A stretch of 64,000 bases of DNA from Rossellomorea marisflavi. Its GTDB lineage: Bacteria > Bacillota > Bacilli > Bacillales > Bacillaceae_B. Position numbers and translations under genes: made by a program. Within the stretch, counting starts at the first letter, position 1; every line of letters starts with the position of its first letter. Positions 53,440 through 60,316 of the stretch are shown in pieces. The notes under the pieces are model-generated. The model made no database searches and was not told the DNA's origin. It worked only from the letters and a program-made list of their open reading frames with translations. The stretch spans positions 1,166,001-1,230,000 of the forward strand of contig NZ_CP081870.1 of assembly GCF_022170785.1 (NCBI RefSeq). Direction: 5' to 3'.

Positions 53440-53507
53440 ATATGACAAGTGTCATATCCTTCATATGACACCTACTACTAACACCATGACACTCTCTCCC
53501 CTATACT
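53440..53507 (+). promoter_or_regulatory. des promoter with DesR-like operators
   Basis: A perfect palindrome ATATGACA-AG-TGTCATAT (53440-53457) is followed by ATATGACA at 53463 and CATGACAC at 53485. A -10 TATACT lies at 53502-53507 with a poor -35 (CTAACA, 53478-53483). Repeated TGACA half-sites before a weak promoter fit activation by a DesR-type response regulator in the cold. Confidence 0.65.
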
Positions 53508-53543
53508 ATGGGTAAGACAAAGAGAAAAGGGGATTGTACTCAC

Positions 53544-54569
53544 ATGACCAATATAAAAACGCTGAAAAAAGAAGTAGCTCCTTATGAGAAATCCACAACA
53601 AAGGAAAGTGTGTGGCAGCTGATTAATACGTTGGGGCCGTTCTTCCTTTTATGGTTCCTCGCCTATGAGAGTTTATCTGTATCTTACTGGCTGGCTCTGG
53701 TCCCCATCATCCTGGCAGCTGGATTTTTGACAAGGATCTTCATCATCTTTCATGACTGCACGCATTTCTCATTCTTCAAAAGCCGCAAAGTCAATCGAGC
53801 AGTCGGTACGGCCATGGGCATCATGACCCTTTTCCCTTTCGATCAATGGGGCCATGACCATGCTGTCCACCATGCAACAAGCGGGAACCTTGATAAAAGG
53901 GGTACCGGTGATATCTGGACGATGACGGTGGAAGAATACCGTGCAGCTACTCTGAAAACACGCCTTGCGTACCGTTTTTACCGTAATCCGTTCGTGATGT
54001 TCATCCTTGGTCCAATCTATGTATTCTTGTTGAAAAATCGCTTCAATCGTAAGAACGCCAGGAAAAAAGAAAGAAATAATACTTACTTCGTCAACCTTGT
54101 ATTGGTAGTCCTGGTCACATTATTCTGCGTGACGCTAGGATGGCTTCCATTCCTGCTTGTGCAAGGATCTATCTTCATGATCTCGGGCGCTTTCGGAATC
54201 TGGTTGTTCTATGTGCAGCACACGTTTGAAGATTCCTATTTCGAGGAAGATAAAGAGTGGGAATATGTGCTTGCGGCAGTGGAAGGAAGCTCGTTCTACA
54301 AGCTTCCAAAGGCCATTCAATTCTTGACGGGGAATATCGGGTATCACCATGTCCATCATTTGAGCCCAAGGGTTCCGAACTACAAACTCGAAGAGGCCCA
54401 TAATAACACCAAGCCATTACAAAATGTACCGACGATTTCCCTGATGACAAGTCTCAGCTCCATCAAATTCAAACTGTGGGACGAAGAACAGAAGAACTTT
54501 GTCACCTTCAAGGCAGCGAAGGTCCAAAAGCCTGCCCGTATCACTCCGCAAGCCAAACCGGAATTATAA
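53544..54569 (+). CDS. des: Membrane fatty acid desaturase (Des)
   Basis: The 341-residue protein has about four membrane helices and the three histidine boxes of membrane desaturases: HDCTH, HHATS and HVHHL. It is closely similar to B. subtilis Des, which puts a delta-5 double bond into membrane lipids after cold shock. ATG 53544 is preceded by AAAAGGGGA. The receiver protein gene follows by 26 bases. No desK sensor kinase gene is in the window. Confidence 0.93.
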   Translation: MTNIKTLKKEVAPYEKSTTKESVWQLINTLGPFFLLWFLAYESLSVSYWLALVPIILAAGFLTRIFIIFHDCTHFSFFKSRKVNRAVGTAMGIMTLFPFDQWGHDHAVHHATSGNLDKRGTGDIWTMTVEEYRAATLKTRLAYRFYRNPFVMFILGPIYVFLLKNRFNRKNARKKERNNTYFVNLVLVVLVTLFCVTLGWLPFLLVQGSIFMISGAFGIWLFYVQHTFEDSYFEEDKEWEYVLAAVEGSSFYKLPKAIQFLTGNIGYHHVHHLSPRVPNYKLEEAHNNTKPLQNVPTISLMTSLSSIKFKLWDEEQKNFVTFKAAKVQKPARITPQAKPEL

Positions 54570-54595
54570 TCGCAGGTTGAAGAGGAGAGACACGC

Positions 54596-55069
54596 ATGAT
54601 TTCTATAGTTGTGGCAGAAGTGGATGAATCATACTTGAGAACCATCTGCTCCCTTTTGGAACTGGAAGAAGATGCAGTGGTGATCGGGCAGGCAGACTCC
54701 CTCGAATCAGCAGGGAGCATCCTGGAGAAAGACCCACCTGACATTTTCATTGCCGACATCAGCTGGCTATATGCACAGGACTTCATAAAAGATGTAGCGT
54801 CCAAAGGCATCAAGATGATCATTCTATCCACGTTTGCCGATCCAGGGAACGAGCGGATGGTGATGGAGTCCGGTGCACATGGCTACTTGATCAAAGACAG
54901 CACGGGAGATGAATTGATCGGAGCGATCCGCACCGTCATGACGGGAGAACACGTGTATTCTCCCAAGCTCGAAGAACCGGGTGAGGAGTCAAGCGTACAC
55001 CCCCTCCCGGTCAGGAAGGCCGGTCCCATCGCCTCTATCGTGAACAGATTCAAATCTTCTGCTGTTTGA
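54596..55069 (+). CDS. Receiver-only DesR-like protein lacking the DNA-binding domain
   Basis: The 157-residue product is a response-regulator receiver (residues 1-120): the acidic start AEVDESYL, the phosphoacceptor region DIFIADISWL, LSTFADPG and HGYLIKDS with the conserved Lys. It resembles DesR along this length. After the receiver, where DesR has a LuxR-type helix-turn-helix, there are only about 35 polar residues ending FKSSAV. It cannot bind DNA like DesR, and may be a phosphate sink or a competitor of DesR (inference). Confidence 0.7.
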   Translation: MISIVVAEVDESYLRTICSLLELEEDAVVIGQADSLESAGSILEKDPPDIFIADISWLYAQDFIKDVASKGIKMIILSTFADPGNERMVMESGAHGYLIKDSTGDELIGAIRTVMTGEHVYSPKLEEPGEESSVHPLPVRKAGPIASIVNRFKSSAV

Positions 55070-55095
55070 GCCTCCCGTTGGGAGGTTTTTTTCTT
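55070..55095 (+). terminator. Terminator of the des operon
   Basis: CCTCCC and GGGAGG pair, followed by seven T residues. Confidence 0.88.
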
Positions 55096-55170: not shown

Positions 55171-56157
55171 GTGCCAACGATCAAAGAAGTAGCGAAGATG
55201 GCTGAGGTCTCGAGTGCCACGGTCTCACGCTTTTTAAATAATTCAGGTTATGTAGGAGAAGAGGCAAGGAAGAGGATTCTGAAGGTGATTGAAGAGACGG
55301 GTTATGTTCCGAGTGAAAATGCAAAGTCCCTCAGAACGAAACAAACGAAAGTCATCGGTGTTATCCTGCCGAAAATCAGCACAGAAACATCAAGCCGGCT
55401 TGTCCGTGGGCTGGATGAGGTCCTGGCTAAAGAGGGATATCAGATCCTGCTTGCCAACTCGGGCTTGAATGCGGATAAGGAAATTGAACATCTCAGGCTC
55501 TTAAAGAGCCGCGATGTGGATGGAATCATCCTCTCAGCTACCACAAATGGAGCCGGGCTGAAGGCTGAAATCCAACGACTGGATATACCGGTGGTCGTAG
55601 TGGGGCAAGAGGTAGACGATACGCCGAATGTGATCTTTGACGAATACCAGGCAGCAAAGGACATGGTGAAACACCTCATCGATCACGGTCATGAACGCAT
55701 CGGATTCATCGGGGTTTCAGAAGAAGACCCGGCTGTCGGTGTATTGAGGAAAAAGGGATACCTTCAGGCGATGCAGGAAAAGAATTTTCCTATAGAGGAA
55801 AGTTGGATCGAGAAGGGGATCTTCGATGTGGAATCTGGAGCAGTGGCCATGGAGCGGATGATGGGGGCTGCTGTACGCCCGACAGCAGTATTTGCCGTGA
55901 CGGATCGCCTGGCCATCGGCGCCATGAATTACGTAAAGTCAATAGGATTAAGGATTCCTGAGGACATTGCCTTTGCGGGAATCGGTGCTTCGGAGCTCTC
56001 CCGATACATTACGCCTTCCCTCACCACTATGGACTATCAAAATAAGGAGTCCGGTAGGGTGGCAGCAGGATTGATCCTGGAAGCCATCAAAAGAGGTGGA
56101 AGTTCTCCTGAAAAAAGACTGATAAATGTTCGACTTCTCCAAGGTGATAGTGTATAA
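55171..56157 (+). CDS. scrR: LacI-family regulator of sucrose genes
   Basis: The 328-residue protein has the LacI helix-turn-helix TIKEVAKMAEVSSATVSRFL, a hinge and a periplasmic-binding-like ligand domain. GTG 55171 follows AAGGAGG. It stands just before the sucrose PTS and hydrolase genes and three identical operators, so sucrose or its phosphate is the probable inducer (inference from neighbours). Confidence 0.88.
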   Translation: MPTIKEVAKMAEVSSATVSRFLNNSGYVGEEARKRILKVIEETGYVPSENAKSLRTKQTKVIGVILPKISTETSSRLVRGLDEVLAKEGYQILLANSGLNADKEIEHLRLLKSRDVDGIILSATTNGAGLKAEIQRLDIPVVVVGQEVDDTPNVIFDEYQAAKDMVKHLIDHGHERIGFIGVSEEDPAVGVLRKKGYLQAMQEKNFPIEESWIEKGIFDVESGAVAMERMMGAAVRPTAVFAVTDRLAIGAMNYVKSIGLRIPEDIAFAGIGASELSRYITPSLTTMDYQNKESGRVAAGLILEAIKRGGSSPEKRLINVRLLQGDSV

Positions 56158-56166
56158 TCCGAATTA

Positions 56167-56180
56167 AGTAATCGGTTTCA
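56167..56180 (+). promoter_or_regulatory. Candidate cre site
   Basis: AGTAATCGGTTTCA matches the cre consensus TGWAANCGNTNWCA at all but the first base. It lies between scrR and scrA. Confidence 0.4.
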
Positions 56181-56189
56181 TTCTGCTGA

Positions 56190-56205
56190 TGTGGAATCGA
56201 TTACA
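56190..56205. promoter_or_regulatory. ScrR operator O1
   Basis: TGTGGAATCGATTACA, a LacI-type operator with the central CG step; identical to O2 and O3 in reverse orientation. Confidence 0.75.
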
Positions 56206-56222
56206 TCATTTTTATGATTTTG

Positions 56223-56238
56223 TGTAATCGATTCCACA
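56223..56238. promoter_or_regulatory. ScrR operator O2
   Basis: TGTAATCGATTCCACA, exact reverse complement of O1; centre-to-centre distance 33 bases from O1. Confidence 0.75.
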
Positions 56239-56277
56239 TTTGGTCTCATAGATTAAGTGTTTTTATTTTCAATGTTG

Positions 56278-56293
56278 TGTAATCGATTCCACA
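56278..56293. promoter_or_regulatory. ScrR operator O3
   Basis: A third identical TGTAATCGATTCCACA, 55 bases from O2 and only 10 bases before the scrA ribosome binding site. Confidence 0.75.
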
Positions 56294-56318
56294 AATGAAC
56301 ATGGAGGGGAGAATGACT

Positions 56319-57722
56319 ATGTCGGAGAATCGAAAGATTGCAGAAGAAATCGTCAAAGCGGTCGGCGGGGATGAAAACATCCTCTCTGTAGCCCACTGTG
56401 CCACACGGCTTCGCATCATGGTGAAAGACAAGGAGGCAATTGACCAGGCAGCGGTGGAAGCAACGGATAAAGTGAAAGGGGCCTTTTTCAATTCAGGGCA
56501 GTACCAGGTGATCTTCGGTACGGGTACGGTGAACAGGATCTATGAAGAAGTCATGAACCTTGGATTGAAGGGATCCACCAAGTCTGAGCAGTCCTCTGAA
56601 GTCGCGAAAAGCGGAAGTGCCTTCCAGCGGGCGATCAGGACATTCGGGGACGTCTTCGTTCCGATCATCCCGGCCCTTGTGGCGACTGGACTGTTCATGG
56701 GATTACGAGGTCTGGTTCTTCAGGAACAGATCCTTGCCTTATTCGGTATGACTCCGGATGATATCTCTCAAAACTTCATCTTGTTCACTGAAATCTTGAC
56801 TGATACGGCCTTCATCTTCCTGCCGGCTCTCGTGGCGTGGTCCACTTTCCGCGTATTTGGAGGTTCGCCAATCGTTGGGCTGGTACTCGGCCTCATGCTC
56901 GTGAGCCCATCGCTGCCGAACGCATGGGGAGTAGCAGGCGGGGATGTACATCCCATCGAATTCTTCGGATTCATCCCGGTCGTAGGCTATCAGGGCTCGG
57001 TCCTCCCGGCATTCATCGCGGGGATCCTTGGTGCCAAACTTGAAAAGCAAATCCGGAAACGGGTCCCGGAGGCATTGGATTTGATCATTACGCCATTCCT
57101 GACACTACTGGTCATGATTACCCTTGCCCTTTTCGTCATTGGGCCAATCTTCCACAGCCTGGAAAACGTCATCCTTGATGGTACGATTGCGGTCCTTGAA
57201 TGGCCATTTGGAATCAGCGGATTGATCATTGGTGCCCTCAATCAGCTTATCGTCGTCACAGGGGTCCACCACATCTTCAATATGCTCGAGATCCAGCTGC
57301 TTGCAAACCTTGGAAGCAATCCATACAATGCCATCATCACCTGTTCCGTCGCTGCACAGGGTGGAGCAGCACTTGCTGTTGGACTTAAGACAAAATCCAA
57401 GAAGCTTAAAGCACTTGCCCTCCCGTCATCATTTTCCGCCTTCCTTGGAATCACTGAACCCGCCATCTTCGGGGTGAACCTGAGATATGGGAAGCCGTTC
57501 ATCATGGGTCTTGTTGGTGGAGGAGTAGGAGGATTCATCGCATCCATTGTCGGCTTGAAGGGAACAGGCATGGCCATCACGGTCATCCCGGGTACGCTTC
57601 TATACTTGAACGGTCAGATCCTCTTATATATCTTGGTGAATGTCATTGCGATCGGAGTTGCATTTGCGCTTACGTGGATGTTCGGCTATTCGGATAAACT
57701 GAAAAACGACGTGGAGAAATAA
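56319..57722 (+). CDS. scrA: Sucrose-specific PTS enzyme IIBC
   Basis: The 467-residue protein has the EIIB domain first (HCATRLRIMV with the phosphorylated Cys) and the EIIC channel after a linker at about 90-105, with some ten membrane helices and GITEPAIFGVNLRYGKPF. There is no IIA domain, so a glucose-type IIA from elsewhere must supply phosphate. ATG 56319 has GGAGGGGAG upstream. It brings in sucrose as sucrose-6-phosphate. Confidence 0.9.
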   Translation: MSENRKIAEEIVKAVGGDENILSVAHCATRLRIMVKDKEAIDQAAVEATDKVKGAFFNSGQYQVIFGTGTVNRIYEEVMNLGLKGSTKSEQSSEVAKSGSAFQRAIRTFGDVFVPIIPALVATGLFMGLRGLVLQEQILALFGMTPDDISQNFILFTEILTDTAFIFLPALVAWSTFRVFGGSPIVGLVLGLMLVSPSLPNAWGVAGGDVHPIEFFGFIPVVGYQGSVLPAFIAGILGAKLEKQIRKRVPEALDLIITPFLTLLVMITLALFVIGPIFHSLENVILDGTIAVLEWPFGISGLIIGALNQLIVVTGVHHIFNMLEIQLLANLGSNPYNAIITCSVAAQGGAALAVGLKTKSKKLKALALPSSFSAFLGITEPAIFGVNLRYGKPFIMGLVGGGVGGFIASIVGLKGTGMAITVIPGTLLYLNGQILLYILVNVIAIGVAFALTWMFGYSDKLKNDVEK

Positions 57723-57743
57723 TGACAGCAAGGAGCTTTGCAT

Positions 57744-59201
57744 ATGAATAAAAATGAAAAAAGACTGCTCACAGCTGTAGAAGAAAGAATACAGTCCCTT
57801 CAACAGAAGGCAGAAGCTGATCCATACCGATTGAACTATCATCTCCTGCCGCCCATCGGACTTCTGAATGACCCGAATGGATTGTCTTTCTTCAAGGGGC
57901 GCTATCACTTCTTCTATCAGTGGAATCCCCTTGAAGAAAGTCACGGAGCGAAATTCTGGGGCCATTATTCCTCAGAGGATCTTGCCACATGGCGACATGA
58001 ACCGATTGCCCTCGTGCCGAGTGAATGGTACGAGAGGAATGGCTGCTACTCTGGGTCAGCAGTCGTTTCGGATGATCATCTGTTCCTATTCTATACAGGA
58101 AACGTGAAGAACGATGCCAGTGAAAGGGAAACGTATCAATGCCTTGCCGTCTCGGAAGACGGGGTGCATTTTGAGAAAAAGGGCCCGATCATCACCTTGC
58201 CTGAAGGATTCACCGCCCATTTCAGGGATCCGAAGGTATGGAAAAGGGGAGCCACCTGGCATATGGTGATCGGAGCACAAACGTCTGAAGGTGCCGGTGC
58301 CGTCGTCTTGTATACGTCAGATGACCTTTATCGTTGGAATTATAAAGGGATTATCGCAGGTGCTGGACGTGACGCACTGGGAGGCTATATGTGGGAATGC
58401 CCTGATCTATTGGAGTTTGATGAAGGCGACGTCTTATTGATATCACCACAAGGGATCGAACCCGAGGAAGATCGGTATCAGAATCTCTTTCAATCAGGCT
58501 ATATGACGGGTGCCCTCGATGTTGATTCATCCCGATTTTCACATGGGGATTTTTCAGAGCTTGATAAGGGCTTTGACTTCTATGCTCCACAGACGATGAC
58601 TGACGAAGCGGGGAGGCGTATCCTCGTGGCATGGATGGGAATGACAGACTCTCAGGAGCCCTATCATCCCACACTGAATTATCACTGGATCCACGCGTTG
58701 ACCATTCCGAGGGAACTGGGATTGAAGGACGGGGTTTTACTCCAACGACCGGTCAAGGAATTGAAAAAGCTAAGGACGGGTGCGTTCAGCGTGCGCTCAA
58801 AAGAACTCCTTGCCGGTGAAAAGTGGGACTTTGAAGGGATGGGAGTGGAGAGCAAGGAACTCATCATCGAGGTTCTGAAGGTGGGCTCTTTCTCTATCCA
58901 CCTCAGGAATGAAGCTGAAATTCACTACGATTGTCAGAAGGGCAGGGTTACATTAACCCGGCGACGCCTTGATGACGGATCTACGGAGAGAAGGAGGGTG
59001 GATGTGAGCCGAGTCCAAAAGCTTCATCTCTTCCTGGACCACTCTTCACTGGAGCTTTTCTTGAATGATGGGGAGCACGTATTGACCGCCCGCTATTTTC
59101 CCCGGGTATCGGACGACTCCATCATTTTTCATTCGAAAGAAAACGTCAGGTTTTCGGTGGAGGCGTATACCTTAAGATCGAATCTGAACGTCCATTCCTG
59201 A
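57744..59201 (+). CDS. scrB: Sucrose-6-phosphate hydrolase (GH32)
   Basis: The 485-residue enzyme has the GH32 nucleophile motif LNDPNGLSF, the transition-state stabiliser FRDPKVW and the acid/base ECPDLLEF, in the normal order, then a C-terminal beta-sandwich. It splits sucrose-6-phosphate into glucose-6-phosphate and fructose. AAGGAG lies before ATG 57744. No fructokinase gene is in the window. Confidence 0.92.
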   Translation: MNKNEKRLLTAVEERIQSLQQKAEADPYRLNYHLLPPIGLLNDPNGLSFFKGRYHFFYQWNPLEESHGAKFWGHYSSEDLATWRHEPIALVPSEWYERNGCYSGSAVVSDDHLFLFYTGNVKNDASERETYQCLAVSEDGVHFEKKGPIITLPEGFTAHFRDPKVWKRGATWHMVIGAQTSEGAGAVVLYTSDDLYRWNYKGIIAGAGRDALGGYMWECPDLLEFDEGDVLLISPQGIEPEEDRYQNLFQSGYMTGALDVDSSRFSHGDFSELDKGFDFYAPQTMTDEAGRRILVAWMGMTDSQEPYHPTLNYHWIHALTIPRELGLKDGVLLQRPVKELKKLRTGAFSVRSKELLAGEKWDFEGMGVESKELIIEVLKVGSFSIHLRNEAEIHYDCQKGRVTLTRRRLDDGSTERRRVDVSRVQKLHLFLDHSSLELFLNDGEHVLTARYFPRVSDDSIIFHSKENVRFSVEAYTLRSNLNVHS

Positions 59202-59317: not shown

Positions 59318-60316
59318 TTATAAGAAAAGATCGATTACATAATAAATCAGGGCTGCCAGCGTAGCAGAAATCGGAAGGGTAATGACCCAGGTGATGAGCA
59401 TACGTTGTGCCGTACCCCATTTGACTCCTCTCAATCGGTGGGCAGAACCAACACCAAGGATTGAGGAAGAAATGACGTGTGTCGTACTGACAGGAAGGTG
59501 GATCGCTGTAGCACCGAAGATGACGGCCGCACCTGTAAGGTCAGCTGCCACTCCATTGACCGGGCGGATTTTCATGATACCGGCGCCGACCGTTTTGATG
59601 ATCTTCCATCCACCGATGGAGGTTCCGAGTCCCATGGCTGTCGCACAGGCAAGCTGTACCCATGTCTGGATATCGTCGGAGGTTTGATAATTATTGACGA
59701 TCAGGGCCATGGTGATGATCCCCATCGCTTTCTGCGCATCATTGGTACCGTGTGTAAACGATTGGAGGGCAGCCGTAGCAATCTGGATGCTTCGGAAGTT
59801 CCGGTTCGTTTTGGCAAGGTTACGGTTTTTAAATACAACCTTGAAGATGCTGTAAATGATGAAACCGACCACGAATGCAAGGATTGGCGATAGAATCAGC
59901 GCTTCGACGATCTTGATGAAGCCTGTATAATTCAGTGATGATAATCCAGCTGCAGCAATCGCAGCACCTGCAATGGAACCAATCAGGGCATGTGAGGAGC
60001 TACTTGGAATCCCAAAATACCATGTCACAAGATTCCAGATGATGGCGGCAATCAATGCAGCCAGGATGACGATCGTCCCATTTTCAAGGGCAAATGGGTC
60101 AACGATGTCCTTCGTGATCGTTTTGGCCACACCTGTGAAGGTCATGGCGCCGATAAAGTTCATGCTAGCCGCCATGATGATGGCGTGTCTTGGCTTCAAT
60201 GCCTTGGTCGATACGGAAGTAGCAATCGCATTCGCAGTATCATGGAATCCATTGATGAAGTCGAATGCAAGAGCAAAGAAAACGATCAAGACGGTCAGAA
60301 TTAATACTGTATCCAT
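59318..60316 (-). CDS. pit: Low-affinity inorganic phosphate transporter PiT
   Basis: The 332-residue protein has ten membrane helices and the two PiT signature repeats: FDFINGFHDTANAIATSVS near the N-terminus and THGTNDAQKAMGIITMALI in the second half. It takes up metal-phosphate with H+ or Na+. It is the second gene of a pair with the DUF47 protein, separated by 15 bases. Confidence 0.93.
   Translation of the reverse strand: MDTVLILTVLIVFFALAFDFINGFHDTANAIATSVSTKALKPRHAIIMAASMNFIGAMTFTGVAKTITKDIVDPFALENGTIVILAALIAAIIWNLVTWYFGIPSSSSHALIGSIAGAAIAAAGLSSLNYTGFIKIVEALILSPILAFVVGFIIYSIFKVVFKNRNLAKTNRNFRSIQIATAALQSFTHGTNDAQKAMGIITMALIVNNYQTSDDIQTWVQLACATAMGLGTSIGGWKIIKTVGAGIMKIRPVNGVAADLTGAAVIFGATAIHLPVSTTHVISSSILGVGSAHRLRGVKWGTAQRMLITWVITLPISATLAALIYYVIDLFL

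Follow-up and report, generated by a model that had tools for sequence, protein, structure and literature searches.

Sda and KipI are antikinases of Bacillus subtilis. Passages of PMC9430884 present these kinase inhibitors as having unrelated folds and, together with passages of PMC7078487, describe the receiver-like proteins FixT and Osp, which inhibit their kinases in the unphosphorylated state. FixT of Sinorhizobium and Caulobacter is a single-domain, receiver-like inhibitor of the kinase of its own pathway, has no acidic pair and does not become phosphorylated (passages of PMC9430884 and PMC7078487). Similarly, Osp of Rhodobacter sphaeroides is single-domain and receiver-like, is activated by CtrA, the regulator of its own pathway, inhibits CckA, and keeps the Asp while lacking the acidic pair (passages of PMC9430884). 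In the DesK-DesR system, shut-off has been described as a lipid feedback, with newly made unsaturated lipids shifting DesK into the phosphatase state (passages of PMC3996569).

Here we describe sdesR, a name coined here, which lies next to the Delta5 desaturase gene des in a 64,000-nucleotide stretch of Rossellomorea marisflavi DNA (the window). Its product, sDesR, shares receiver fold and sequence with DesR, the B. subtilis NarL/LuxR-family response regulator (4ldz, 4le0-4le2, 5iuj-5iul); it keeps Asp54, Lys102, Asp103 and Phe82, and both are linked to des. sDesR differs from DesR in having no LuxR-type helix-turn-helix (HTH), in the change of Asp9 to Val, in a shortened loop and alpha3 after Asp54, and in being encoded with des but without desK. 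Like FixT and Osp, it is a single-domain, receiver-like protein with a degraded pocket. FixT differs in targeting FixL and, in Caulobacter, in an Fe-S cluster held by a 4-Cys motif, while Osp belongs to a hybrid-kinase phosphorelay in another lineage, and neither is linked to a desaturase. By analogy, our best reading is that sDesR works like FixT and Osp but arose separately, as a paralogue of its pathway's own regulator. In the titles and abstract openings of the open-licence literature on DesR/DesK, DesR paralogues and des promoters, we found no description of sdesR, and we found no open-licence paper that joins Rossellomorea with a desaturase.

We give slightly better than even chances to the proposal that sDesR is a DesR-controlled feedback antagonist of DesK/DesR that acts for the most part independently of phosphorylation; that it antagonises DesK/DesR by any route at all we put at about an even chance. 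As the membrane stiffens in the cold, DesK would make DesR~P and the des promoter would be turned on. If one transcript covers both des and sdesR, the antagonist would be made along with the desaturase. Having no HTH but a DesR-like receiver on which much of the surface that faces DesK persists (parts of alpha1, the beta5-alpha5 loop and Phe82), sDesR could then compete with DesR for DesK, or form unproductive dimers with DesR, and des expression would be damped. We infer four elements of this scheme: that DesR controls the des-sdesR promoter, that the two genes are co-transcribed, that sDesR binds DesK or DesR, and that its effect is a damping one.

The locus and its operator-like site

The features of the locus are as follows.

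53442-53470, plus strand: putative DesR operator, a palindrome ATGACA-N2-TGTCAT, then 9 nt and a half site ATGACA, recognised by its recurrence at des-sdesR loci

53478-53507, plus strand: sigma-A-like promoter immediately after the operator, with CTAACA and TATACT 18 nt apart (consensus scan)

53547-54569, plus strand: des, Delta5 desaturase of 340 aa from the conserved MTNIKTLKK start (NF052548; start kept in relatives)

54596-55069, plus strand: sdesR, truncated DesR paralogue of 157 aa (ORF list, Pfam, PDB sequence and fold matches)

55068-55088, plus strand: terminator-like element where sdesR ends, a hairpin and then a T run (scan; visible in the sequence)

The first-pass annotation had placed a DesR-like receiver directly after des, with no kinase gene beside it. 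Indeed, the 157-codon frame begins after a 26-nt spacer that holds an RBS-like sequence, and no kinase ORF in the ORF list adjoins it. The des product scores 595 bits against NF052548, the DesA Delta(5) desaturase (cut-off 500). The ORF finder started des at 53508, which gives the longest-ORF version an extra length (53508-53546) 5' of the conserved start; the start at 53508 abuts the -10-like box and is unlikely. The promoter has 9 of 12 consensus matches, in a scanned region that holds five such sites where shuffling predicts 2.2, and two terminator-like sites were found where 2.0 are expected. Further downstream, at 55171-59201, lie a LacI-type regulator, a permease of the sugar PTS type and a gene resembling sucrose hydrolases, names that were given by eye; the interval between regulator and permease carries TGTGTAATCGATTCCACA twice and an inverted near-copy, the sites being at 56190, 56221 and 56276.

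A search of the same genome for desK and a full desR, which the annotation had suggested, found both, intact and adjacent with a 4-nt overlap (386 and 199 aa; C1, about 2.297 Mb), 1.1 Mb from des-sdesR. Loss of DesK/DesR from the genome is thus ruled out. With up to two mismatches, the operator pattern has a single match in the 4.31-Mb genome, upstream of des, and the reversed control has none. At zero or one mismatch it is found in all 43 des-sdesR loci, and in all five of the close des loci checked that have no sdesR within 1.4 kb downstream. When desKR loci were scanned at up to two mismatches, the pattern was present in 11 of 15 fetched with des (absent from the other four) and in none of the seven fetched without des. 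Based on this distribution among des and desKR loci, we infer that the palindrome plus half site is a DesR site. The idea of feedback on des, raised in the annotation, is strengthened by the genome-unique operator-like site and by the conserved pair; the effect of sDesR on des itself is a proposal.

The receiver, the missing helix-turn-helix and descent from DesR

The protein divides into two parts.

54596-54970, plus strand: receiver domain, residues 1-125 (confident AlphaFold2 fold; Pfam Response_reg at residues 4-111)

54971-55066, plus strand: linker and tail (residues 126-157), where DesR has its LuxR-type HTH (pLDDT, alignment)

The AlphaFold2 block means are 90-95 over residues 1-120, and pLDDT is below 50 for residues 130-157. 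Among PDB sequences DesR matches best (4ldz, E 9.9e-23), and the best fold match of the predicted structure is DesR in the DesK-DesR complex 5iuk (E 1.2e-13). The annotation had also described the protein as having no LuxR-type HTH, and Pfam reports only the receiver in the window protein, with no GerE/LuxR HTH. The tail, which by alignment is a shortened remnant of the conserved C-terminal stretch of the family, is mostly predicted disordered; a folded DNA-binding domain in this region is unsupported, the tail being disordered in both structure models. The two objections that the annotation had raised against itself, a genome with no DesK/DesR and a tail that folds as a DNA-binding domain, therefore do not apply. 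A frameshift or assembly artefact of a normal desR can be rejected, as 157-aa homologues with 94-95% identity are found in two other genomes; one of these two, in the Rossellomorea marisflavi JCM 11544 record (G011, as its coordinates show), is 95% identical over the whole protein.

The absence of an HTH also bears on whether sDesR might have the opposite sign, as a positive or switch-like modulator that aids activation through DesR heterodimers at the des operator or that blocks the phosphatase state of DesK. Membership in the same family as the activator and the three half sites of the des operator would suit such a role, but sDesR has no HTH with which to add DNA contacts, and we consider this reading improbable.

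We built a receiver tree from 42 short proteins, 28 full DesRs and one distant outgroup (134 columns). The full DesRs all fall on one side of a supported branch (98/93). A single clade of short proteins is neither rejected (AU p 0.375) nor established, and the root is uncertain, given the great length of the outgroup branch. The branch to the window clade is itself very long, at 3.19 changes per column, which could reflect a relaxed or shifted function.

Short proteins from other genera retain HTH vestiges: the sequence of L074 includes EREMEVLELLAD and finishes with GTVRNYFSTIIDKIKLPTG, where full DesRs have GTVRNYISTILDKLEVKNR. GerE is matched at E ≤ 0.1 in 4 of 37 members of the sDesR family, with a best E of 1.8e-4. 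These vestiges and matches indicate that the first part of the HTH eroded and its end disappeared, while the segment corresponding to the recognition helix survived; given the LuxR fold, we take the helix that matches the kept C-terminal stretch to be the recognition helix. Judged from sequence, sDesR is thus a DesR paralogue with an eroded HTH core.

The kept stretch has a regular pattern in 38 tails (the 42 without the three of the window clade and that of L073): Tyr at -14 and Lys at -5 are each found in 37, and Pro at -3 and a final Gly in 36 each. Of this motif, just a short remnant survives in the window clade. Together with the long branch, this means that conclusions about the tail fit the family and cannot safely be carried over to the window protein.

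A C-terminal stretch kept in most relatives, in a protein encoded next to des in all 43 loci, might instead point to a partner that acts on Des or the membrane, for example on stability or activity through that stretch. Neither descent from DesR nor the kept kinase-facing loop of DesR is needed for such a role; moreover, the tail is predicted to be disordered when alone, and the window clade has lost most of its motif. We regard this explanation as unlikely.

Phosphorylation pocket and kinase-facing surface

Two codons of the window gene are central to the phosphorylation pocket.

54620-54622, plus strand: codon 9, Val where DesR has Asp9 (alignment with DesR)

54755-54757, plus strand: codon 54, the phospho-acceptor Asp54, kept in the window (alignment)

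In DesR numbering, the pocket of the window protein reads E8, V9, D54, S80, K102, and the loop after Asp54 is shorter and has lost its Met-Pro. The earlier statement that the receiver keeps its phosphorylation residues is right for Asp54 and Lys102, with Thr80 replaced by Ser, but fails at the second acidic residue, the Mg-binding Asp9, which is Val, so that the pocket is not intact. We defined an intact pocket as E8, D9, D54, T80 and K102, allowing E or D at positions 8 and 9 and S or T at 80. By this definition the pocket is intact in 22 of the 42 short proteins, compared to all 28 full DesRs (one of which is the B. subtilis sequence), and it is broken in 20 of 42 compared to 0 of 28. Asp54 itself is missing in seven of the 42, replaced by Asn in four and by Gly in three. 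The tree requires at least six changes of pocket state, and at least five for Asp54 alone.

These counts weigh on the suggestion that sDesR is a phosphate sink, in which DesK would phosphorylate sDesR and so drain phosphoryl groups from DesR. All five pocket residues are present in 22 of the 42 short proteins, several of them from other genera, and the kinase-facing loop is conserved, both of which speak for a sink. However, Asp9 is Val in the window, 20 of the 42 pockets are broken, seven have no Asp54, and the repeated changes on the tree have occurred despite purifying selection. We therefore think a family-wide sink unlikely, and we rate the sink explanation as a whole quite unlikely, although single sDesR members may accept phosphate. 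The branch of the first-pass annotation in which sDesR draws phosphate from DesK is correspondingly weakened. Repeated breakage of the pocket within the family implies that the core activity is probably independent of phosphorylation, and blocking of DesK or a non-productive DesR dimer would, on the sequences, fit better than a draw of phosphate.

In structures of DesK-DesR, passages of PMC5231405 list Leu13, Ala16, Leu17, Leu20, the loop 102-106, Phe82 and Arg84 as DesK contacts. All 42 short proteins keep Phe82 and Asp103, and 41 keep Lys102; these residues bear on the kinase face since they, or the loop that holds them, contact DesK (same passages). Arg or Lys occupies position 84 in 35 of the 42, and Asp does so in the window clade. 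Identity to full DesR is 0.63 over alpha1 plus beta5alpha5/alpha5 versus 0.38 over alpha2-alpha4, but the same face is already better conserved among the full DesRs (0.85 against 0.76). The exact kinase contacts are not significantly better conserved than other DesR-conserved positions (permutation p 0.16). The window protein has the contact changes L13Y, A16T, L17I, R84D, P105T, S106G and E107D. The pattern on the kinase face is no more than suggestive.

Distribution, selection and proposed role

Among 36 genus genomes searched, 31 carry sdesR, with des directly upstream in all 31; the count comprises 25 short homologues from a profile search and six longer ones of 175-180 aa (G010, G015, G016, G019, G033 and G034). 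In two of the genomes without it (G002 and G009), des is followed by a terminator-like hairpin and then by an opposite-strand gene like that at 59318-60316 of the window, which we take to be a phosphate permease. A third (G013) has only a classical des-desK-desR operon. In the last two (G014 and G027), des is 56-58% identical, and neither a match as good as DesR nor sdesR is found. All 31 sdesR-bearing genomes also hold a DesR-class match elsewhere (in G023 the frame is only 144 aa), and the two genus genomes with no such match are also those, G014 and G027, without sdesR.

Several individual genomes depart from the common arrangement. In G023 (L100), des is broken by a TGA and the desR match has a 144-aa open frame only; the genome is listed with 10% contamination, and a sequencing error is possible. 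In G010, L073 2270-2797 encodes a short DesR with a different tail that has no conserved C-terminal motif. Six genus genomes have two des genes, one in a classical des-desK-desR arrangement and one with sdesR: L098/L078 (G001), L094/L071 (G019), L095/L069 (G016), L096/L072 (G034), L097/L070 (G033) and L099/L068 (G015).

A search across the order covered 397 genomes, 16 from the genus and 381 others. At least 11 of the 381 have a full-length short-type match among the matches listed, and G274 was added from its des locus, so that at least 12 of 381 genomes outside the genus carry sdesR, in four other genera, with eight of the 12 in one genus. A full DesR was read in four of the 12 (G164, G198, G228 and G239), seven others have a second match at E ≤ 1e-66 (counted by score only), and G274 has a DesR match elsewhere in its genome. 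DesR-class matches are common in the order, in 268 of 397 genomes at E 1e-66, and the co-occurrence of sDesR with DesR is therefore weak evidence.

The sdesR gene is under purifying selection. We pooled pN/pS over pairs within seven groups of close relatives, and for whole sdesR obtained 0.11-0.26 (0.16 in the window trio). The corresponding values are 0.03-0.07 for des (five groups: A, B, C, E and the window trio) and 0.04 for desK in the window trio; sdesR is thus less constrained than either. Over the last 20 codons pN/pS is 0.00-0.15 in six of seven groups, with few changes in group D (0 against 1) and group C (2 against 3), and in five groups (B-F) the constraint on these codons is tighter than on the receiver. 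The tail is not the more constrained part everywhere: its pN/pS exceeds that of the receiver in group A (0.11 against 0.07) and likewise in the window trio, 0.36 against 0.14, where the tail value rests on 2 against 2 changes.

Selection and distribution together speak to whether sdesR is merely a decaying duplicate, a functionless truncated DesR gene carried along with des. The loss of the HTH core, the diverging receiver, close des units without sdesR, the missing tail motif in G010 (L073) and a pN/pS several times that of des are what such decay would leave. Set against these are the low overall pN/pS, the low values for the final 20 codons in all groups but one, frames that are open in all 43 loci, and a covarying spacer hairpin in relatives. 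We find this explanation very unlikely. The sdesR reading frame is intact and next to des in every one of the 43 loci read, and the truncation is more than chance, because the pair recurs in the genus and in four further genera, and pN/pS stays far below 1. Still, sdesR is dispensable, since close des genes without it retain the same operator (5 of 5 checked).

The spacer between des and sdesR is 65-194 nt in the 40 loci outside the window clade (29 plus 11), but only 26 nt in the three window-clade loci, where the hairpin is absent (54570-54595 in the window). In 21 aligned spacers (e.g. L014, L025 and L074) we found a hairpin GACTCYCC...GGRGAGTC, followed in most by TCTTT, in which 97.4% of cells pair, and the pattern fits nine of 11 further loci. 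Three of its nine pairs are changed on both sides, which 20 of 500 shuffles equal; the covariation score is reached by 0 of 500, and pair types are no more numerous than in shuffles (331 of 500). The hairpin would be a weak terminator that lowers sdesR relative to des. An RNA switch that pairs the spacer 5' arm with the sdesR RBS was rejected: 93.9% of cells pair, but with 0 compensatory pairs.

A more elaborate version of the antagonist proposal, which we put forward only tentatively and think rather doubtful, is that a paralogue of the activator has turned into an anti-activator: sDesR would be a phosphorylation-independent feedback inhibitor of the membrane thermosensor in which, in most species, the recognition helix has been reused as a new functional peptide and the hairpin sets the dose. 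The reused helix may, for example, attach to DesK, to RNA polymerase or to DesR through its DNA-binding domain, or may serve as a turnover tag.

Compared to the first-pass annotation, the analysis adds a conserved family with a legible evolutionary path, while the phosphotransfer detail has become less certain. If the antagonist proposal is true, a brake derived from DesR and produced alongside the desaturase would give a model membrane thermosensor an additional loop at the protein level, and would place a circuit like those of FixT and Osp in the Bacillus lineage. The sDesR family preserves graded steps from a DesR-like to a non-phosphorylatable receiver, which makes the conversion of an activator to an inhibitor directly testable.
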